From Bacteroidota bacterium (GTDB lineage: Bacteria > Bacteroidota > Bacteroidia > UKL13-3), in contig CANJUD010000010.1 of the NCBI GenBank assembly GCA_947477885.1, positions 1 through 64,000 of the forward strand: 64,000 bases of DNA, in the 5' to 3' direction. The notes beneath the pieces are model-generated. The model was not told the origin of the DNA and did not search any database. It saw nothing but the letters and a program-made list of their open reading frames with translations. Of the stretch, positions 8,476-56,670 are shown piece by piece. The position numbers and the translations under genes were made by a program. Position 1 is the first letter of the stretch. Each line of letters begins with the position of its first letter.

Positions 8476-9504
8476 ATGAACCTTAAAACAAAGAGAAATA
8501 TTTCAACCCTTTGTCTGCTAACGCTTTTTATTTGCAATTGTAAAAACGATAGGCTCGATATTAGGGTGGATGAAGAAGCCTATAAACCAACCATAGTGCG
8601 GCTCGACGAGCGTATATGGAATATGAAGGAAGCAGATTTTTTTAAGTTCACCGATAGTTTAAAAAAAGCAGACCCGAATTTTTTTTATGGCTGGGCATCG
8701 CAAGTTGTGCTTAGTCAAAATCCAGATATGCCCCAAGCTTTGGTGCTCGATTCATTCAAACATTTCTATTTTCATAATTACCCCATGCGTAATTTGATGA
8801 AGGACGTGCATGAGAAGTTTAAAGACCTGAAACAACTAGACAAAGTAGGAGCAGCAGTATATAGCAGGTTCAAATACTATTTTCCACAAGGCCAACTCCC
8901 AGCCCTTATCACTGTAGTTAATGGAATGAGAGCTTATGGAGGCGTGTTCGAAAAAGCTATCTGTTTTAGCCTCGACCATTTCCTAGGTGCCGACCATCCT
9001 CTTTATAAAGCCTTGCCCGATTTGCCCAAGTACTTATACCAAAAATATAGCCCAGAATATTTCGGCAAACGGATTGCAGATGGCTTGTTTGAATTTACTT
9101 TTGGTGGAGTTGGGCAAAGCCCTGTATTTATGCAACAAATGATTTTGAGCGGAATGCAACAATATTATATAGATGCAATGTTGCCCAATGAACATGACAG
9201 TATTAGAAGAGAATACGCAGCAATGCAATTAAAGTGGTTGCAGCAAAATGAGAAGCAGGTTTGGGAACATTTCGCCTCTCAAAAATTATTCTATAGCAAC
9301 GACAAAGAAAAAACCGAACGCTATTTTGCCGATGGCCCATTCACCCAAGGATTGCCCAATGAGTCAGCCCCACGACTTGGAATTTGGGTGGGCTATAAAA
9401 TTGTGAAAAAGTATATGGATACCCATGAGGATGTGACCTTGGAAATGTTGCTGAAAGAGAAAGATTACAATAAAATATTTACGGAATCGGGGTATAAGCC
9501 TTAG
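8476..9504 (+). CDS. gldB: Gliding motility lipoprotein GldB
   Basis: A 342-residue lipoprotein precursor with a short hydrophobic signal ending in FICNC (C20 or C22 could be lipidated). The body carries the GldB pattern: a LITVVNGMRAYGG strand, LDHFLGADHPLY, LPKYLYQKYSPEYF, and near the C-terminus PNESAPRLGIWVGYKIVKKYM and an SGYKP-type end. GldB is needed for gliding in Flavobacterium and is thought to support function of the T9SS/gliding apparatus. The usual neighbour gldC is not next to it. A 7-bp-period array begins at the stop codon. Confidence 0.9.
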   Translation: MNLKTKRNISTLCLLTLFICNCKNDRLDIRVDEEAYKPTIVRLDERIWNMKEADFFKFTDSLKKADPNFFYGWASQVVLSQNPDMPQALVLDSFKHFYFHNYPMRNLMKDVHEKFKDLKQLDKVGAAVYSRFKYYFPQGQLPALITVVNGMRAYGGVFEKAICFSLDHFLGADHPLYKALPDLPKYLYQKYSPEYFGKRIADGLFEFTFGGVGQSPVFMQQMILSGMQQYYIDAMLPNEHDSIRREYAAMQLKWLQQNEKQVWEHFASQKLFYSNDKEKTERYFADGPFTQGLPNESAPRLGIWVGYKIVKKYMDTHEDVTLEMLLKEKDYNKIFTESGYKP

Positions 9505-9747
9505 TATAAAGTATCAAGTAGCTAGTATCTAGTATCAAGTAGAAGGAATAAAGACCAAAGACCAAATACAAATGATGAATGATGAAAGATGAATGGGCTG
9601 ACGCCAGATTTAATAAATATAGGAGAGAGACAAAAGACAAAAATGAATAAGGAGTAAGGACTAAGGAATATCAGGCGTCAGCACTTACTCCTTAGTCCTT
9701 AGTCCTTACCACTAAATACTTACCACTAATAACTAATGACTAAAAAA
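9503..9747. repeat. 35-unit heptanucleotide-period array filling the gldB-dxr spacer
   Basis: From the gldB stop (9502-9504) into the first codons of dxr, the sequence can be cut into 35 consecutive 7-mers without a slip. Adjacent units repeat or differ by one to three bases: AGTATCA and AGTATCT, then two AGACCAA, two TGATGAA, two GACAAAA, AGGAGTA and AGGACTA, two TTAGTCC, and TTACCAC twice. TGGGCTGACGCC is at 9594-9605 and its inverted form CAGGCGTCAGC at 9672-9682. TAAGGACTAAGGA (9655-9667) and TCCTTAGTCCTTA (9689-9701) form a perfect 13-bp inverted pair around the second core. The dxr ATG sits in the unit TAATGAC. Confidence 0.85.
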
Positions 9748-15978: not shown

Positions 15979-16027
15979 ACGAATTAATTCGTAATTCGTA
16001 ATTGATAATTCGTAATTTTGCCTAGCA
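15979..16027. repeat. Heptanucleotide-period array before recG
   Basis: Seven in-register 7-mers end at the recG ATG. They include AATTCGT three times, AATTGAT and AATTTTG. The last of these forms the -7-like box TAATTTTG at 16013-16020. Confidence 0.78.
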
Positions 16028-18286: not shown

Positions 18287-20911
18287 TTATTTTGATCCTG
18301 TATTGTGCATAAGCAACAACTGTATCTGCTTATTTTGTTCAGCTACTAATTTTTTTAGTTCGTCTATTTGCAATTGCTGCTCTTGTACCGCATTCACCAA
18401 GGGAATCACAAAATCGCCATAGCGTATACCGTAGTTGTCCTTCTCGTTTTGTGGTTTGCAAAGCCCACTGAAATTTATACCCAATTCTGTCAAGGTTTTC
18501 TCCACCTCTTGTGCTATAAAACCATTATAGGTAGTGCCTGTATTGCTATTGGTATATATATATGAAACGGGGCGAAGTTTTGATATAAAATTCAATCCCA
18601 ATTTATAATCTCGTACATCGGTTTTATATCTCCCATCCGATATGGTAGTCCAACCTACTTGGCCGCCTATATAGCTCATAGATGAGTTGCCAATGACAGC
18701 TTTGTTGCTCGCACTTATTTTTACATTGTATCCCAGGGCTACTGTATTGGTTAAGTTGCTTGATGATACATCAGCACTGTCGCCAATAAGCGTGTTCCTG
18801 CTTCCGGTGGTATTAACACTGCCAGACAATGAACCAACAGCCACATTGCTGTAGCCGGTTGTATTGCCAGAAAGCGACTTAATTCCATTGGCAATGTTGT
18901 TGTCCCCGGTTGTATTTCCCAAAAGCGCCTGATAACCAGTGGCAACGCTGTAGGCACCTGTTGTATTATTAAAAAGCGCCTGATAACCAGTGGCAACGTT
19001 GTTGCCACCTGTTGCATTATTATAAAGCGACTGATAACCATAGGCAATATTGTTATAGCCGGTTGTATTTGAAGTTAGCGACATATGGCCAGTGGCAACG
19101 TTGTTTTTACCGGTTGTATTTGAAGCTAGCGACTGATGGCCAGTGGCAACGTTGTTGTTACCTGTAGTGTTTGAATAAAGCGCCTGATAACCAATGGCAA
19201 GGTTTTCGTTACCGGTTGTGTTATAATAAAGCGACATTGAACCAATAGCAACGTTGTTGCGACCTGTTGCATTATTATAAAGCGAATTATAACCATTGGC
19301 AACGTTGTTGTTACCTGTTGTATTTGAAGCCAGCGACTGATAGCCTGCAGCTGTATTATTATAGCCAGAGGTGTTGCTATACCCAGCACTATCTCCTGCA
19401 AATGTATTAAAATATCCAGTCGTGTTTTTATTGCCTGCATAATTGCCAATTGCGGTGTTGCTGTATCCTGTTGTATTATTAAAAAGCGCCTGATAACCAG
19501 TGGCAGTGTTGGCTATGCCAGTTGTATTAGCAAATAGCGACATATAACCAATGGCGGTGTTATTGCTCCCAGTTGTATTAACCGATAGCGCCGACGCACC
19601 AATGGCTACGTTGGAGTTTCCTGTTGTATTATAATAAAGCGCACCACCGGACCCAATGGCGGTGTTATTGCTCCCAGTTGTATTACGATAAAGCGCACCG
19701 GACCCAGTGGCAACGTTGTAATCACCTGTTGTATTATTAGAAAGCGCACCGTCCCCAATGGCATTGTTCATGGAACCTGTTGTATTATAATAAAGCGACA
19801 GAGAACCATTGGCAACGTTGCGGTAACCGGTTGTATTATTATAAAGCGCCATATAACCATTGGCAACGTTGTTGTAACCTGTTGTATTATAATAAAGCGA
19901 CAGAGGACCATTGGCAACGTTGCGGTAACCGGTTGTATTTGAAGCTAGCGACTGATAGCCTGTGGCTGTATTATTATTGCCAGAGGTGTTGCTATACCCA
20001 GCACTATCTCCTGCAAATGTATTAAAATATCCAGTCGTATTTTGATTGCCTGCATAATTGCCAATTGCGGTGTTGCTGTATCCCGTGGTATTTGAATAAA
20101 GCGACTGATAACCAGTGGCTACGTTGTTGTTCCCGGTTTTATTAAACAATAGCGCCGACGTACCAATGGCAATGTTGGAGTTCCCTGTTGTATTATAATA
20201 AAGCGCACCGGACCCAATGGCATTGTTCATGTAACCTGTTGTATTACGATAAAGCGCACCGTCCCCAATGGCATTGTTCATGAAACCTGTTGTATTATAA
20301 TAAAGCGCTATATAACCATTGGCAGTGTTCTGGTAACCGGTTGTATTATTGTAAAGCGACTGATTGCCATTGGCAACGTTGCGGTAACCTGTTGTATTAT
20401 AATAAAGCGAATTATAACCAGTGGCAACGTTGTATGAACCAGTTGTATTTGAAAAAAGCGTCTGATAACCAATGGCATTGTTCATGAAACCTGTGGTATT
20501 GCTATTTAGCACCTGATATCCAATCGCCGTATTTGTTGAAACTGAACTATTCCCAATGCCTACACGCATGCCATTGGCATATAAGTCTGCATTGAATGTT
20601 TTGGTGCCATTCACAGATTGGTTGCTCACAAGGTTTACAAAGTTTCCCTCACCAGCCGATACCCAAGAACTGCCATCGAAGATGTAAAGCCCCTTGGTGC
20701 TGTCTGTCTGATAGATAATTAACCCGCTTCGGGGTGAAGCAATTGCATTTTTTCTAGTAGCAGACATCCGTGGCGGAAGAAAACCTTTGGTTGTGTCTGC
20801 CAATTCAAGCACCGCCGATGCATGTGGCGTGTTGGTTCCAATTCCCACTTGGGCCTTTGTAATAGAACATGTGCTTACCACTATGGCAAGAGAAAGTAAA
20901 AACTTGTTCAT
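18287..20911 (-). CDS. Giant 17-residue-repeat surface fibre with C-terminal S74 self-cleaving chaperone
   Basis: An 874-residue secreted protein. The signal peptide ends near residue 20 (ITKAQ), followed by the common Bacteroidota head QVGIGTNTPHASAVLEL and TTKGFLPPRM. Residues from about 120 to 700 hold 34 tandem units of about 17 residues, consensus NTTGxNNxAxGYQSLYx (51 bp each). They probably stack as a trimeric beta-roll or beta-helix, as in YadA-type heads. The C-terminal 117 residues form an endosialidase-type intramolecular chaperone. S758 and K763 in SDGRYK are the expected self-cleavage dyad, and a coiled coil follows (VQEQQLQIDELKKLVAEQ). Units 9-11 recur almost unchanged as units 21-23, 615 bp away, so the array has grown by block duplication. 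Unit 17 has one extra Gly. No T9SS tail is present. Likely adhesin-like. Confidence 0.85.
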   Translation of the reverse strand: MNKFLLSLAIVVSTCSITKAQVGIGTNTPHASAVLELADTTKGFLPPRMSATRKNAIASPRSGLIIYQTDSTKGLYIFDGSSWVSAGEGNFVNLVSNQSVNGTKTFNADLYANGMRVGIGNSSVSTNTAIGYQVLNSNTTGFMNNAIGYQTLFSNTTGSYNVATGYNSLYYNTTGYRNVANGNQSLYNNTTGYQNTANGYIALYYNTTGFMNNAIGDGALYRNTTGYMNNAIGSGALYYNTTGNSNIAIGTSALLFNKTGNNNVATGYQSLYSNTTGYSNTAIGNYAGNQNTTGYFNTFAGDSAGYSNTSGNNNTATGYQSLASNTTGYRNVANGPLSLYYNTTGYNNVANGYMALYNNTTGYRNVANGSLSLYYNTTGSMNNAIGDGALSNNTTGDYNVATGSGALYRNTTGSNNTAIGSGGALYYNTTGNSNVAIGASALSVNTTGSNNTAIGYMSLFANTTGIANTATGYQALFNNTTGYSNTAIGNYAGNKNTTGYFNTFAGDSAGYSNTSGYNNTAAGYQSLASNTTGNNNVANGYNSLYNNATGRNNVAIGSMSLYYNTTGNENLAIGYQALYSNTTGNNNVATGHQSLASNTTGKNNVATGHMSLTSNTTGYNNIAYGYQSLYNNATGGNNVATGYQALFNNTTGAYSVATGYQALLGNTTGDNNIANGIKSLSGNTTGYSNVAVGSLSGSVNTTGSRNTLIGDSADVSSSNLTNTVALGYNVKISASNKAVIGNSSMSYIGGQVGWTTISDGRYKTDVRDYKLGLNFISKLRPVSYIYTNSNTGTTYNGFIAQEVEKTLTELGINFSGLCKPQNEKDNYGIRYGDFVIPLVNAVQEQQLQIDELKKLVAEQNKQIQLLLMHNTGSK

Positions 20912-21434: not shown

Positions 21435-23240
21435 ATGACAGAAAAAAACACCCCAAACACTGGATCAGCAGATTTTGATTGGTCTATGGACAAAGCCGGT
21501 TTCGGCAATTACACAGCAGATGAGCGTAAAAATTACGAATCAATCTACGAAAAAACCATTACCGTTATTACTGAACGCGAACTTGTGCAAGGCATTATTG
21601 TGGCTATTGGCGACAAAGATGTAGTGCTCAATATCGGTTTCAAATCAGATGGACTTATTTCACTTAACGAATTTCGCGATATGCCTAACCTTAAAGTGGG
21701 CGATAGCGTTGAAGTGCTTATAGAAAGTACCGAAGATTCGAGTGGGCAATTGTTACTTTCACGCCGTAAAGCCATTGGCGAACGTGCTTGGGAGAACATC
21801 ATTAAAGCCCACGAGAATGATGAAATAGTGGAAGGATTTGTGAAGTCGAGAACCAAAGGTGGTTTAGTTGTGGATGTTATGGGACTTGATGCATTTTTGC
21901 CAGGTTCTCAAATTGATGTGAAACCTATCCGCGATTACGATGTGTATGTTAACCAAACTATGCAGTTCAAAGTAGTGAAACTTAACATGCAATTTAAAAA
22001 TGTAGTTATATCTCACAAAATATTAATTGAAGACGATATACAAGCTCAGAAGAGCGATATATTGAGCAAACTAGAAAAAGGACAAGTATTAGAAGGTGTT
22101 GTAAAAGGCATGACTTCATTCGGTGCCTTTATCGACCTTGGTGGTCTAGATGGTTTGTTGCATATCACCGATATCTCTTGGGGCCGCATAAATCACCCAG
22201 AAGAATTATTGCAGATCGACCAAAAACTAAATGTAGTTATACTTGACCACGATACCGAAAAGAACCGTATTTCTTTAGGATTGAAGCAACTTACCCCACA
22301 TCCATGGGATACTATGACCGAAGGCCTAGCCGAAGGAAATCAAGTAAAAGGTAAAGTAGTAACCGTAGCCGATTATGGTGCATTTGTTGAACTTGCTCCT
22401 GGTATTGAAGGTTTGATACATGTATCTGAACTTTCGTGGAGCTCTCATCTTCGCAACCCACAAGATTTCTTGAAAGTGGGCGACGAAATTGAAGCAGTTA
22501 TATTAAACCTTGATAAAGAAGACCGCAAAATGAGTCTTGGTGTTAAACAACTTACACCGGATCCTTGGGGAACAATCGCTGAGAAATATCCTGTTGGTTC
22601 AAAGCATAAAGGAATCGTTCGTAACCTAACCAATTATGGTTTGTTTGTAGAAATGGAACCAGGTGTTGACGGACTTGTTCACGTTTCCGATTTATCATGG
22701 ACCAAGAAAATTAAGCACCCTGGTGAGTTTGTGAAGAAAGACCAAGAGATGGACGTAATCGTACTTGAAGTAGATTCAGAAAATCGTCGCTTGAGTTTAG
22801 GACACAAACAATTAGAAGATAATCCATGGGAAACTTTCGAATCAATATTCCCAGTTGGTAGCGATCATGAAGCTACAGTTCTTAAAATCCAAGACAAAGC
22901 TGCAACCCTTGCTTTACCTTACGGTGTAGAAGGTTACGCTACTTTGAAACAAATGCAGAAAGAAGACAAGAGCACTGCCAAAGAAGATGAAATCATTGTT
23001 GTAAGAGTAATTGAATTCAACAAAGAAGGCAAACGCATTGTAGTTTCGCATACTGCTGCTTGGAAAGAAGAAGAACCCAAAAAGAAAGAAGAAGTTGAAG
23101 TTAAACGCCGTCGCAACGATGAGGCAGCAACCAAAGCCGTTAAAACAATCAATGCCAAAGTAGAACGCTCTACCCTTGGTGATATGGATGCCTTGGTAAA
23201 TCTAAAAGCTGAAATGAACGAAACAGATAAGTCTGAATAA
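21435..23240 (+). CDS. rpsA: 30S ribosomal protein S1
   Basis: A 601-residue protein made of consecutive S1 RNA-binding domains. Internal repeats are easy to see: VVKGMTSFGAFIDLGGLDGLLHITDISW, split here as GAFIDLGG and LLHITDISW, then GAFVELAPGIEGLIHVSELSW-like and GLFVEMEPGVDGLVHVSDLSW-like blocks, each followed by LGLKQL or LGVKQL. The first two domains bind the ribosome and the later ones mRNA. The tail (about 545-601) is charged, rich in E, K and R. Standard length for Bacteroidota. A strong terminator follows. Confidence 0.95.
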   Translation: MTEKNTPNTGSADFDWSMDKAGFGNYTADERKNYESIYEKTITVITERELVQGIIVAIGDKDVVLNIGFKSDGLISLNEFRDMPNLKVGDSVEVLIESTEDSSGQLLLSRRKAIGERAWENIIKAHENDEIVEGFVKSRTKGGLVVDVMGLDAFLPGSQIDVKPIRDYDVYVNQTMQFKVVKLNMQFKNVVISHKILIEDDIQAQKSDILSKLEKGQVLEGVVKGMTSFGAFIDLGGLDGLLHITDISWGRINHPEELLQIDQKLNVVILDHDTEKNRISLGLKQLTPHPWDTMTEGLAEGNQVKGKVVTVADYGAFVELAPGIEGLIHVSELSWSSHLRNPQDFLKVGDEIEAVILNLDKEDRKMSLGVKQLTPDPWGTIAEKYPVGSKHKGIVRNLTNYGLFVEMEPGVDGLVHVSDLSWTKKIKHPGEFVKKDQEMDVIVLEVDSENRRLSLGHKQLEDNPWETFESIFPVGSDHEATVLKIQDKAATLALPYGVEGYATLKQMQKEDKSTAKEDEIIVVRVIEFNKEGKRIVVSHTAAWKEEEPKKKEEVEVKRRRNDEAATKAVKTINAKVERSTLGDMDALVNLKAEMNETDKSE

Positions 23241-23266
23241 GGCTTTTTCTAAATCTTATAGCGAAG

Positions 23267-23300
23267 ACCCTGTTCCAGTTTTGGAATGGGGTTTTTTGTT
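23267..23300 (+). terminator. Intrinsic terminator after rpsA
   Basis: ACCCTGTTCCA pairs with TGGAATGGGGT (11 bp with two G-U pairs) and is followed by TTTTT. It stands 26 bp after the rpsA stop. Confidence 0.88.
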
Positions 23301-23301
23301 T

Positions 23302-23336
23302 TAATAGTAGTTAGTAGTCAGTAGTCAGTAGTCAGT
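23302..23336. repeat. Short inverted arm of heptamer repeats
   Basis: Units TAATAGT, AGTTAGT and three AGTCAGT in register. They are the reverse complement of the CTGACTA units in the large array starting at 23383. The 46-bp stretch between (23337-23382) is the only non-repeat DNA and contains GCCGCCGAATGGC. Confidence 0.8.
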
Positions 23337-23382
23337 GAAATCCAGTTTGCTACGCAAATTGTGGAGCTGCCGCCGAATGGCA

Positions 23383-23669
23383 CTGACTACTGATCACTGA
23401 CTACTGCTTACTGACTACTGATCACTGACCACTGTTTACTGACTACTGACTACTGACTACTGACTACTGATCACTGCTTACTGACTACTGACTACTGTTT
23501 ACTGACTACTGACTACTGTTTACTGATTACTGATCACTGACCACTGACTACTGACTACTGTTTACTGACCACTGACTACTGACCACTGACTACTGACTAC
23601 TGACCACTGACTACTGACTACTGATCACTGACTACTGTTTACTGACCACTGACTACTAACTTTGCCCCA
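23383..23669. repeat. 41-unit heptanucleotide array (CTGnnnA) ending at the EamA gene start
   Basis: Thirty-nine units of CTGnnnA follow each other without a single register slip, then CTAACTT and TGCCCCA, then the ATG at 23670. Variants are CTGACTA (most), CTGATCA, CTGACCA, CTGTTTA, CTGCTTA and CTGATTA. Positions 1-3 and 7 never change while 4-6 vary. The final degenerate units create a TAACTTTG box (23657-23664) five bases before the ATG. Confidence 0.95.
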
Positions 23670-24563
23670 ATGTTTTACCTCCTCATCAGTATTCTTTTTT
23701 CGGCCGGCATGGTGCTTCTGTTCAAGGCTTTCGAGGTTTTTAAGATTGAGAATTTGCATGCGTTGTTAGTTAATTATATTACGGCTTCTATATTGTGCAA
23801 TACATTTTCATCAAATGAACCTATTTTATTCACACACTTTTGGCAGCATGATTGGTTTCCGTTGACGCTGTTTTTGGGTATTTTATTTATCAGCATATTT
23901 TATGCGTCAGCTATCACAGCTCAAAAAATAGCAGTATCAGTAAGTATTGTTTCATCTAAGATGAGTGTGATGATTCCGGTACTATTTGCTTATTATTATA
24001 TGGATGGTAAACTAAATTATATTACTATCATAGGAATCGTAGGATCGCTATTGGCCGTGTATTTTACAGTGAAACGTGAAGAGAAAAGCAGGTTAAGTGG
24101 CATGGGGAATATATTGTTTCCGTTGGCGGTATTTTTAGGTAGTGGAATTGTTGATTCAAGCTTGAATTATTTACAGCACACTTATATGGACACATCAGAT
24201 GTGAACGACCAGTTGGGGCTTATCTTCGGCATAGCTGGTGTAACAGGATTGGTTGTATATATAGTGCAAATTATCACAAAAAAACAAAAGTCATTCTATA
24301 CAAAATCAATAATTGGCGGAATAGCTTTGGGTAGTTTTAATTATATAAGTACCATATGTTTAATGAAAGCATTGAATGAGAAATTTATTGAAAAAACAGT
24401 GTTGTTCCCCGTGGCTAACGTAGCAATAGTAGCACTAACTACAATTTTGTCTGTTATATTATTCAAAGAAAAACTGAGCAAGCAAAATTGGGTAGGTATT
24501 ATACTGTGTTTGGTTTTTATATTATTGATTTCACAATCGGATGCTATTTACAGATACTTATAG
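23670..24563 (+). CDS. EamA/DMT-superfamily permease
   Basis: A 297-residue, highly hydrophobic protein with about ten predicted membrane helices in two similar halves. The N-half reads MFYLLISILFSAGMVLLF then repeated helices, and the C-half ends with VALTTILSVILFKEKLSKQNWVGIILCLVFILL. The KEKLSKQNWVGI turn near the end is typical of EamA domains. Such proteins export or import small metabolites, and the substrate is not predictable. The gene starts directly after the large heptamer array and overlaps the next gene by 23 bp. Confidence 0.8.
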   Translation: MFYLLISILFSAGMVLLFKAFEVFKIENLHALLVNYITASILCNTFSSNEPILFTHFWQHDWFPLTLFLGILFISIFYASAITAQKIAVSVSIVSSKMSVMIPVLFAYYYMDGKLNYITIIGIVGSLLAVYFTVKREEKSRLSGMGNILFPLAVFLGSGIVDSSLNYLQHTYMDTSDVNDQLGLIFGIAGVTGLVVYIVQIITKKQKSFYTKSIIGGIALGSFNYISTICLMKALNEKFIEKTVLFPVANVAIVALTTILSVILFKEKLSKQNWVGIILCLVFILLISQSDAIYRYL

Positions 24564-25155
24564 TACCATTGAAGCTCCAGTTCAGTCAAGCTTCCGCGAT
24601 AGGGGGAGTAAATTTGTGGGCTATGCATTTCCCGCAAAGAATGAAGAAGAAGTGAAAATTCATCTCGCAAAAATTAAGAAAGAATTTCATGATGCTACGC
24701 ACCATTGTTATGCATATATAATAGGTCCGAATGCAGAAGCACAGCGGGCAAATGATGATGGCGAGCCCGCGAATACCGCAGGCAAACCTATACAGCGTTC
24801 AATACATGCAAAGGGATTAACAAATATATTGGTGGTGGTAGTTCGTTATTTCGGAGGCAAACTTTTGGGCGTGCCTGGCTTGATAAATGCATATGGAAAA
24901 ACTGCCGAAGAAACCCTGAGAGAAGCTATTATTATTGAGAAAATTGTGGAAGAAGTACATCTAGTTACTTTTAATTATGAAGAAGAAAATGCAGCGTTCA
25001 AAATTCTGAAAAACTATGATGCTAAAATTTTGCAAATAGACAAATTAGAAACATGTTCGATTATATTTGCAATTAGGATGTCAAATTCTGTGAAGTTGGG
25101 CAACGCTTTAAAAGAATTGTCGTCTCTAAATTTAAAGTATTTATATGTACAGTAA
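24541..25155 (+). CDS. YigZ/IMPACT family protein
   Basis: A 204-residue protein of the UPF0029/IMPACT family. The signature block runs from RGSKFVGYAFP through ATHHCYAYIIG, DDGEPANTAGKPI and VVVVRYFGGKLLG to TAEETL. The C-terminal part is the small ferredoxin-like DUF1949-type domain. The family is widespread. Eukaryotic IMPACT acts on translation control, and the bacterial role is unclear. It overlaps both neighbours (23 bp upstream, 11 bp downstream), so translation is probably coupled. Confidence 0.9.
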   Translation: MLFTDTYSTIEAPVQSSFRDRGSKFVGYAFPAKNEEEVKIHLAKIKKEFHDATHHCYAYIIGPNAEAQRANDDGEPANTAGKPIQRSIHAKGLTNILVVVVRYFGGKLLGVPGLINAYGKTAEETLREAIIIEKIVEEVHLVTFNYEEENAAFKILKNYDAKILQIDKLETCSIIFAIRMSNSVKLGNALKELSSLNLKYLYVQ

Positions 25156-54321: not shown

Positions 54322-56541
54322 ATGCAATACACCAAACACATTTTAGCACTTTTATTGTGCGGTTTTTTCATCTCTAACATATATGCCCAGGACGAGCCAG
54401 ACACGGGGAAACTTGATTTGAAATTGGCTGATATATGGGAGACAGGAAGGTTTTCGCCCAAATATGTTAGTGGTTATCAGTCCATGAAAGATGGGGAATT
54501 TTTTAGTAAAGTTGATTACCATGAAGGTGATAAAAACTATTTGCTCAATCAGTATAGTTATAAAACCGGGAAATTGGCAGGAACCATTGCCGAGTCACGG
54601 AAAGTGAAACCTGATAAATATACTGGCGATGTAGATTTCGGGAATTACCAATTCACCAATGATGAAATGAAAATATTGTTCGAGGCGGAGCATCAACAAT
54701 TGTATCGCCATTCCTATACTGCCAAATATTTTATTTTCGACCGCAAAAGCAGGGTGAGCAAATTTATAAGCACCGCCAAAGGCATGAATGCCACATTTGG
54801 TCCCGATGATAAATATATAGCGATGGTGAGAGAAAATGATTTGTATTTGATTAATACAGAAAACAACATGGTTGAAACAAGAGTAACTAACGATGGCAAA
54901 AAGAATGAAATAATTAATGGAGCTGCCGATTGGGTATATGAAGAAGAATTTGCATTAACCTCTGGTTATTCATTTTCGCCCGATGGAAAATATATAGCAT
55001 ACTATCGTTTTGATGAAAGCAAAGTAAAATCATATTCAATGCCAGTATATAATGGTTTATATCCTGCTACTGAAACTTTCAAATATCCCAAAGCAGGAGA
55101 AGATAATTCTGTTGTTACAATTTGGGTTTATGATATTGCTGCAGGCAATCGTGTACAAATTGATTTGGGTGCAGACAAGGATATATATATTCCCCGAATC
55201 AGGTGGAACTATGATGGCAGCGAGCTATGTGTATTCCGAATGAATAGGTTGCAAAATAATTTGGACTTGCTGATGGTGAATCCCCATGATGGTGCTTCCC
55301 GTTTGATGCTGAACGAGAGCAGTGATACCTATCTTGAGGTGCCTGATGATTTGACATTTCTGGCCAAGGGCGAAGAATTTATTATGAGTAGCGAACGCGA
55401 TGGATATAAGCATCTGTATTTGTTCAAAACCAAAGATGGAAGTATGGTTAATCAAATTACAAAGGGCAAATGGGAGGTTGATCAGTTTATTGGATATGAT
55501 AAAAAATCAGGATATATATATATTAATTCAACAGAAATTAGTTTTAATGATCGTAATCTTTGGCGTGTAAAATTGGATGGTAGTGAAAAGAAACGTATCA
55601 CTATTCGTGATGGGAATAATGAAGTACATTTTAGCAGTAATTATAAATATTTTCTATGTGTATATTCGAATATTAATACACCCTATTTTATAAGTATATA
55701 TAATAATAATGGATACGAATTGAGAATAGTTGAAGATAATAAAAAACTGCGTACCAAACTAGAAAGATATCAGTTGAGTAATGTAGAATTTTTTGAATTC
55801 AATACCAATGAAATGCTCAACTTATATGGATATGTATTCCATCCCAAAGATTTTGACCAAAACAAAAAACACCCAGTATTGCAATATGTATATGGTGGCC
55901 CTGGTAACCAGCAGGTAATGGACCGTTGGATGGGAGCGTATTATTATTGGTTCCAATACCTAGCAGCAAATGGATATGTAGTAGTATGTGTAGATGGCCG
56001 CGGTACGGGCGGTAGAGGGTCATCGTTTAAGAAAATGACTTATAAGGAATTGGGACATTATGAAATTATAGACCAAATAGAGGTAGCCAAATGGTTAGCC
56101 GGACAGCCTTGGGCCGATGCCAGCAGAATTGGAATTTTCGGATGGAGTTATGGGGGCTATATGGCATCGTTAGGTATCACCAAAGGTGCTGCATGGTTTA
56201 AGACAGCGATAGCAGTTGCACCTGTTACCAATTGGCGTTATTATGATAATATATATACTGAGCGTTATTTGCAAAAACCACAGGATAATGCAGTAGGTTA
56301 CGATCAAAATTCGCCCATCAATTTTGTAGATAAAATAAAAGGGAACTATCTTATTATACATGGCACTTCTGATGACAATGTGCATTTCCAAAATTCAGCA
56401 GAAATGGTGAATGCAATGGTGAATAAAAATATACCTTTCGATTCAGAATATTATCCTAATAAAAATCACGGAATAAGAGGAGGTAAAGCCAGATTGCATT
56501 TATTTACAAAGATTAGTAAGTATATATTTGAGAAGTTATAG
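54322..56541 (+). CDS. Dipeptidyl peptidase IV-like S9 serine peptidase, secreted
   Basis: A 739-residue enzyme with a signal peptide (MQYTKHILALLLCGFFISNIYAQ). An N-terminal eight-bladed beta-propeller covers about 50-480, with the EEEFALTSGYSFSPDGKYIAYYRFDE stretch holding the Glu pair that binds the substrate N-terminus. The C-terminal alpha/beta-hydrolase has nucleophile S609 in GWSYGGY, Asp in HGTSDDNVH and His in NKNHGI. It should remove X-Pro dipeptides from peptides in the periplasm. A TAATTTCG box is 10 nt before the ATG. Confidence 0.94.
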   Translation: MQYTKHILALLLCGFFISNIYAQDEPDTGKLDLKLADIWETGRFSPKYVSGYQSMKDGEFFSKVDYHEGDKNYLLNQYSYKTGKLAGTIAESRKVKPDKYTGDVDFGNYQFTNDEMKILFEAEHQQLYRHSYTAKYFIFDRKSRVSKFISTAKGMNATFGPDDKYIAMVRENDLYLINTENNMVETRVTNDGKKNEIINGAADWVYEEEFALTSGYSFSPDGKYIAYYRFDESKVKSYSMPVYNGLYPATETFKYPKAGEDNSVVTIWVYDIAAGNRVQIDLGADKDIYIPRIRWNYDGSELCVFRMNRLQNNLDLLMVNPHDGASRLMLNESSDTYLEVPDDLTFLAKGEEFIMSSERDGYKHLYLFKTKDGSMVNQITKGKWEVDQFIGYDKKSGYIYINSTEISFNDRNLWRVKLDGSEKKRITIRDGNNEVHFSSNYKYFLCVYSNINTPYFISIYNNNGYELRIVEDNKKLRTKLERYQLSNVEFFEFNTNEMLNLYGYVFHPKDFDQNKKHPVLQYVYGGPGNQQVMDRWMGAYYYWFQYLAANGYVVVCVDGRGTGGRGSSFKKMTYKELGHYEIIDQIEVAKWLAGQPWADASRIGIFGWSYGGYMASLGITKGAAWFKTAIAVAPVTNWRYYDNIYTERYLQKPQDNAVGYDQNSPINFVDKIKGNYLIIHGTSDDNVHFQNSAEMVNAMVNKNIPFDSEYYPNKNHGIRGGKARLHLFTKISKYIFEKL

Positions 56542-56670
56542 AAGCACGAAGCCAGAAGCCCGAAGACGGAAGTTTGCTGACGCCGCTACCTAATGCCAAC
56601 TTCCGTCTTCCAACTACCAGCTTTGTTCTACCGTCTAAATCAGTCAATAATCAAATCGTTCAATCATTAA
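56538..56670. repeat. 19-unit heptanucleotide-period array between converging DPP-IV and radC
   Basis: The whole spacer, from the DPP-IV stop to the radC stop, keeps a 7-base period: ATAGAAG, CACGAAG, CCAGAAG, CCCGAAG and ACGGAAG, then TTCCGTC, TTCCAAC, TACCAGC and TACCGTC. GAAGACGGAAGTT (56562-56574) and AACTTCCGTCTTC (56598-56610) are a perfect 13-bp inverted pair with TGCTGACGCCGC between them. It could also act as a two-way terminator, though T-runs are lacking. Confidence 0.82.

Follow-up and report, generated by a model that had tools for sequence, protein, structure and literature searches.

A tandem heptamer array between rpsA and an EamA-family gene in a Bacteroidota genome: very probably the expanded arm of an ORF-less foldback element related to intervening-sequence protein genes

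The window (the whole stretch of DNA analysed, 64,000 nucleotides, positions 1-64000 of contig 10) belongs to a genome of 3.1 Mb, assigned to Bacteroidota from its relatives, gene content and promoter box, and carries, between rpsA and a gene encoding an EamA-family transporter, a long array of seven-base repeats. The features of this locus, and two further elements of the same class in the window, are listed below.

21435 to 23240, plus strand: rpsA (30S ribosomal protein S1), the upstream neighbour, about 90% identical at orthologous sites
23263 to 23296, plus strand: rpsA intrinsic terminator, immediately before the element; its stem has 15 pairs and a T tail (expectation from shuffles 0.1)
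23306 to 23336, plus strand: left arm, about 4.4 units of AGTAGTC (the CAGTNNN dialect)
23337 to 23382, plus strand: core of 46 bp, with a small hairpin (TTTGCTACGCAAA) at 23346-23358
23366 to 23381, plus strand: family core GCTGCCGCCGAATGGC within the 46-bp core, a variant of GCTGACGCCGAATGGC
23383 to 23655, plus strand: right arm, enlarged to 39 CTGNNNA units, of which the inner ones pair with the left arm
23656 to 23669, plus strand: outer end CTA and leader, holding the TAACTTTG box
23657 to 23664, plus strand: TAACTTTG, a predicted -7 box of the Bacteroidota type, which two sister species also keep
23670 to 24563, plus strand: EamA-family transporter gene, the downstream neighbour, 87-88% identical in sister species
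9648 to 9708, strand not assigned: second, compact element, AAGGA-dialect arms around the core CAGGCGTCAGC
56541 to 56637, strand not assigned: third element, GAAGNNN-dialect arms around TTTGCTGACGCCG; the orthologous site of one sister species (G002) has a different sequence

A preliminary description, made from the letters of the sequence, had reported 39 consecutive CTGnnnA units with six states of the variable triplet, and a recount of 23383-23655 agrees, with zero exceptions at the fixed C, T, G and A (triplets ACT 20, ACC 6, ATC 5, TTT 5, CTT 2, ATT 1). The inverted arm and 46-bp core of that description are both present, the arm beginning at 23306 and not at 23309, and the locus can fold as a hairpin, as had been supposed: the RNA fold of 23302-23420 has a predicted energy of -54.8 kcal/mol (z = -6.8 against dinucleotide shuffles). 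The array adjoins the EamA gene closely without running straight into its ATG (23670), since 14 nt (CTAACTTTGCCCCA) follow the last full unit. The suspected non-randomness of the variable triplets is strong in content, with pyrimidines at 98.6% of unit positions 5 and 6 in the element family (421 units), and weak in order (p 0.02 at a lag of 6 units and 0.007 at a lag of 9, without correction for the 12 lags tried); a coded triplet order was rejected on the weakness of that signal. Rfam covariance models gave zero matches to positions 22000-25000 up to E = 1.

The array had been taken for a single local feature and is instead a member of a genome-wide element family. The proposed search of the genome for CTGnnnA arrays revealed many copies, the four-unit pattern matching 475 times against 134 times for the reversed control pattern, and the stretch of arm, core and arm gave 257 blast matches as a query. 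Further counts come from sampled stretches of the genome (600 kb unbiased, and sets of 800 and 864 kb). Both arms are present at 29 loci in the 800 kb of sequence, and copies of the CAGTNNN dialect end consistently in TAGT...ACTA. An arm usually has 3-5 units; in some copies one arm is tens of units long, and such arms have often been enlarged by higher-order steps of 14 bp. Identical unit order at many unrelated loci had been proposed as the mark of a mobile copy as opposed to local growth; the element does recur at many loci, with a different order of units, and the long arrays grew locally.

Clusters were sought as any tetramer plus three free bases, repeated at least four times at a fixed step. 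In the unbiased 600 kb, period 7 gave 48 clusters, against 0-2 at periods 6, 8, 9 and 10; in the 864 kb, 105 clusters have period 7, whereas a shuffle has 0 and periods 5, 6 and 8-11 have 0-3, a result that upholds the earlier view that more than simple slippage is involved. The arms are written in several dialects, among them CAGTNNN, TACGNNN, AATTACG, TAATGGT, AAGGAGT and AGTATCA (more exist), and many of these share a core, GCTGACGCC/GCCGAATGGC. There are 31 inverted arm pairs in several dialects, and 34 of the 44 copies of GCTGACGCC lie at most 40 bp from period-7 arms, which make up 2.5% of the sequence. Two main kinds of core are found: one is GCTGACGCCGAATGGC, and in the other its halves are set apart, by about 100 bp at most. 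The element class thus defined has two inverted arms of tandem heptamers, each heptamer with four fixed and three variable bases, around a conserved core, and its full form carries a gene for a four-helix-bundle protein (PF05635) between the core half-sites.

Period-7 clusters are intergenic in 82 of 91 cases. The elements have no marked preference for gene orientation, their contexts (convergent gaps included) occurring in about the proportions of intergenic gaps generally, and a role as terminators was rejected on this distribution. Similarity between arms is 0.45 within one element and 0.38 between different elements (p 0.014); perfect pairing of the variable triplets between arms was rejected, the own arms being barely more alike than foreign ones. 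Two more short heptamer arrays were noted in the window, at 9503-9541 and 15985-16017 (AGTATCA and TAATTCG dialects).

PF05635 is the 23S rRNA intervening-sequence protein (IVP), an ORF of about 120 aa in known 23S intervening sequences (IVS; PMC4990558). All seven PF05635 genes of the host genome are bracketed by inverted heptamer arms, of differing dialects, and at two of them (L175, L176) the inner end of each arm is one half of the shared core. Eighty named IVP loci were then compared, chosen by protein similarity alone with a tightened alignment (the first one was too diverse) and drawn from Bacteroidota, Ignavibacteriae, Chloroflexi, Proteobacteria, Omnitrophota, SAR324, CPR, KSB1 and Planctomycetota. 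Inverted period-7 arms scoring at least 4 flank 52 of the 80, against 3 of 148 control positions, and arms scoring at least 5 flank 41, against none of the 148; the positive loci include Chloroflexi, Ignavibacteriae, Alphaproteobacteria, Omnitrophota, SAR324, CPR and Planctomycetota. Among 30 loci from other Bacteroidota, strict inverted period-7 arms are present at 17 (control 0 of 60). About a third of the IVP loci fall below the strict arm score; by eye, nearly all of the 30 loci from the phylum have a seven-base rhythm. Autocorrelation of IVP flanks at lag 7 is 0.656 versus 0.437, with clear peaks at lags 7 and 14 only. Arms of period 8 were seen at 9 of the 80 loci, for example as AAAGTTTC units at a Lambdaproteobacteria locus (L257).

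The repeat unit length seems to go with the gene family, because PF05635 flanks favour 7 and the flanks of a second family of common small ORFs, GxxExxY (PF13366), favour 9-10. GxxExxY genes also stand between inverted arms (exact inverted match of at least 12 at 11 of 30 loci, control 0 of 60), with period 7 at 1 of 30 and periods 9 and 10 favoured (5 and 9 of 30); lag autocorrelation supports the period of 9-10 weakly. At Bacteroidota loci of this PD-(D/E)XK-like family (L313-L342, L178, L167:13030-13600), the arms consist of CACAGAGNN words.

Of the 296 Bacteroidota genomes sampled, 232 carry PF05635. IVP gene number bears no simple relation to heptamer density (one genome, G022, has 9 IVP genes and 0 clusters in 80 kb), and since the one fails to predict the other, ORF-less copies were amplified at the level of the genus, through a separate cause. 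In six species (L187, L188, L191, L193, L195, L206) an IVP gene is found in one and the same gap, ahead of a gene resembling acetyl-CoA acetyltransferase, with differing arm dialects and with outer units that enter the coding ends of the host genes. Two other IVP elements (L179, L185) are enclosed by long genes whose sequences suggest DNA modification enzymes. Because the host frame stays open throughout, across the arms and the IVP gene, which uses another frame, such an element may be tolerated inside a protein.

The site between rpsA and the EamA gene was compared with its counterparts in two sister species (G001 and G002), and the three species have three elements there: CAGTNNN in the genome studied, CTGCCAA in G001 and GAAGTNN in G002. 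The sister arms are thus in other dialects (CTATCTTTG, CTATATTTG), while each sister, like the genome studied, has a TAnnTTTG box 5-7 nt ahead of the EamA start codon, and all three elements end against this box. The preliminary description had derived the TAACTTTG box from the degenerate last units of the array; this derivation fails, because the box is kept in sisters whose arms differ, and TAnnTTTG is best read as the -7 box of the EamA gene itself, which the element abuts. A change in unit number had also been thought able to alter promoter spacing or expression; the predicted -33 and -7 elements both lie within the last few units, and growth upstream would leave them as they are. Control of promoter spacing through the number of units was rejected on this ground and on the conservation of the -7 box whatever the arms. 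The element at EamA is probably a passenger, lodged behind the terminator of rpsA and in front of the promoter box that belongs to the EamA gene.

Other orthologous sites hold the element in different forms. At the L176 site the host has an ORF-bearing element with TTTACGA arms and G002 an ORF-less one with AATTACG arms; at the L177 site the host element contains the ORF, the G001 element is of the same dialect and has an arm longer than 200 bp, in which two contigs break, and G002 has no element. Elements with the ORF, without it and with an expanded arm are therefore states of one thing; among the sites compared, the ORF-bearing form was seen at L176 and L177, and none is known at the EamA site. 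At two further sites, CAGT arms in the host correspond to AAGGA arms in G001, around the same core in opposite orientation. Differing dialects around a kept, inverted core could mean turnover of the arms in place and not new insertions. Two G001 contigs (C6 and C148; L295:1-200, L297:1-100) end inside an expanded arm of TCTAATGTCTAAAT units, and because contigs end in this way, heptamer arrays, which break assemblies, are under-counted.

The copy between rpsA and the EamA gene has no PF05635 gene, its 46-bp core being without an ORF, and it can for this reason only be a non-autonomous relative of the IVS/IVP-type element. Its ends are of that type: the heptamer arms match exactly, and the core is a close variant (GCTGCCGCCGAATGGC) of the half-sites GCTGACGCC/GGCGTCAGC. 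The array is very probably the expanded arm of such an ORF-less foldback element. We consider it likely, with somewhat less confidence, that the element class is mobile; recognition of the heptamers by the IVP protein is a more tentative proposal, rather less likely to be right than wrong. In the mechanism that we envisage, the element would spread as a selfish insertion, and its arms would pair, as RNA or as single-stranded DNA, into a long stem. An oligomeric IVP protein would read this stem heptamer by heptamer, in cis or, for ORF-less copies, in trans, and would support insertion or maintenance of the element, which may tolerate transcription as an excisable or inert stem-loop in the manner of rRNA intervening sequences. 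Where the ORF was lost, the arms would remain, and one arm could gain whole units (7 or 14 bp at a time) through slippage or unequal recombination, here up to 39. Mobility is the weakest link of this explanation, because no DNA-cutting enzyme was identified: neither a transposase nor a nuclease could be linked to the element, the parent insertion sequence having been sought among Y1 transposases only, and its ends have no evident target-site duplication. Crystal structures of the PF05635 family number two (2gsc and 2rld), and a Xanthomonas IVP protein forms a homopentameric toroid, according to a citation in PMC4990558.

Structure-driven growth at each site would dispense with a mobile element: a terminator-like or REP-like hairpin would be enlarged by slippage and quasi-palindrome template switching, with the heptamer period and the IVP genes as by-products. 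Growth by whole units and 14-bp higher-order steps in the long arrays accords with this, as does the slightly greater likeness of an element's own arms, which copying from arm to arm predicts. Slippage, however, has no reason to pick 7 and shun 6, 8, 9 and 10, and neither the core shared across dialects nor the IVP association across phyla is explained, so that we regard this account as improbable. A somewhat smaller chance is given to a host regulatory array, in which the units would be binding sites in series or would act after transcription from their place ahead of the start codon, of the kind proposed for TAACTGA repeats of Beggiatoaceae, for which translational control has been suggested (MacGregor 2015, PMC4679880). 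The position just before a start codon and beside a conserved -7 box is as such a function would have it, and a further copy (L046) abuts the same TAACTTTGCCCCA leader, but copies occur in all gene contexts in about the proportions of intergenic gaps, and the sister species retain the gene and the box and not the arm sequence. Mobilisation in trans of a REP/REPIN-type palindrome by a Y1 (RAYT) transposase is very improbable: the element is a short interspersed intergenic palindrome in many copies and the genome has three full-length Y1 transposases, but the element is absent within about 1.5 kb of all Y1 loci, which have palindromes of their own, and REPs, as the available text of PMC3733652 describes them, are 20-40 bp long and lack heptamer arms. 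Assignment to REP/REPIN in the strict sense (a short palindrome that has a GTAG or CGTC tag and a link to a RAYT gene) was rejected, the three full-length Y1 loci being without the element. The palindromes that flank these Y1 genes (L061, L062 and L063: CCGTCGGTTGAAACCGACGG; CCCCGAAGGGGTGA; CCCACGATTGAAATCGTGGG) are apparently REP families of Bacteroidota.

Eukaryotic foldback transposons have long inverted arms of short tandem repeats, with variable arm length; the foldback element favoured here resembles them in arm architecture and differs in that organisms and proteins are unrelated. A close parallel is the 23S rRNA IVS of Coxiella burnetii, in which GACAGAT heptamers precede the S23p ORF in two or three sets according to strain and which was called a selfish element by authors who discuss transposition and a mobile origin (PMC4990558). 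The two have in common a PF05635 ORF between inverted ends and tandem heptamers, whereas known IVS interrupt helices of rRNA, from which RNase III removes them, and the present elements are intergenic, multi-copy and mostly ORF-less, with an arm reaching tens of units. A 23S rRNA intervening sequence in the strict sense was rejected for the array, which lies between rpsA and the EamA gene. Intergenic TAACTGA arrays were described in Beggiatoaceae, Cyanobacteria and Bacteroidetes with the comment, in the accessible text, that "no mechanism is evident" (MacGregor 2015, PMC4679880); they share the heptamer period, the intergenic position, often near start codons, copy numbers of up to 43 and a patchy distribution. 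That study searched for one word, and its accessible part describes no inverted arms, shared core or IVP link. REP, BIME and REPIN sequences with their RAYTs (PMC3733652, PMC2817692, PMC3116915) are likewise short interspersed intergenic palindromes without a gene of their own; as far as the available portions of these papers go, they lack heptamer arms, and the present element lacks a linked Y1 transposase. A MITE of Porphyromonas gingivalis (PMC4596501), also from the Bacteroidota and also with tandem repeats (a minisatellite), differs in that its repeats are internal, and heptamer arms and an IVP link go unmentioned in the available part of that paper. The pieces, namely the Coxiella IVS heptamers and the TAACTGA repeats, are known. 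Searches of an open-licence library found no paper that unites IVP genes, heptamer arms and ORF-less arrays; subscription papers lie outside this scope and priority is not certain.

It is an even question whether heptamer-armed IVP elements constitute a pan-bacterial class of foldback mobile elements, in which the encoded small protein would set the unit length (7 for PF05635, about 9-10 for GxxExxY/PF13366). The intergenic heptamer repeats of Bacteroidota, and perhaps those of Cyanobacteria and Beggiatoaceae, would then be the arms of ORF-less descendants, with an arm sequence that turns over fast and a period and inverted complementarity that are kept. PF05635 proteins have no assigned function and belong to the commoner kinds of uncharacterised small protein in Bacteroidota, often in many copies, and uniting them with the intergenic heptamer repeats gives both a frame: a small selfish element with a seven-base ruler in its arms. 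It can now be tested whether the pentameric four-helix-bundle protein binds, moves or excises heptamer stems, and why the arms change sequence in concert with the period kept. Heptamer arrays may also serve as hypervariable strain markers.

Elsewhere in the window, an ORF of 874 aa on the minus strand (18287-20911) contains about 30 degenerate 51-bp repeats (NNTTGxxN words), has a C-terminal part resembling endosialidase chaperones and probably encodes a surface adhesin or fibre protein.
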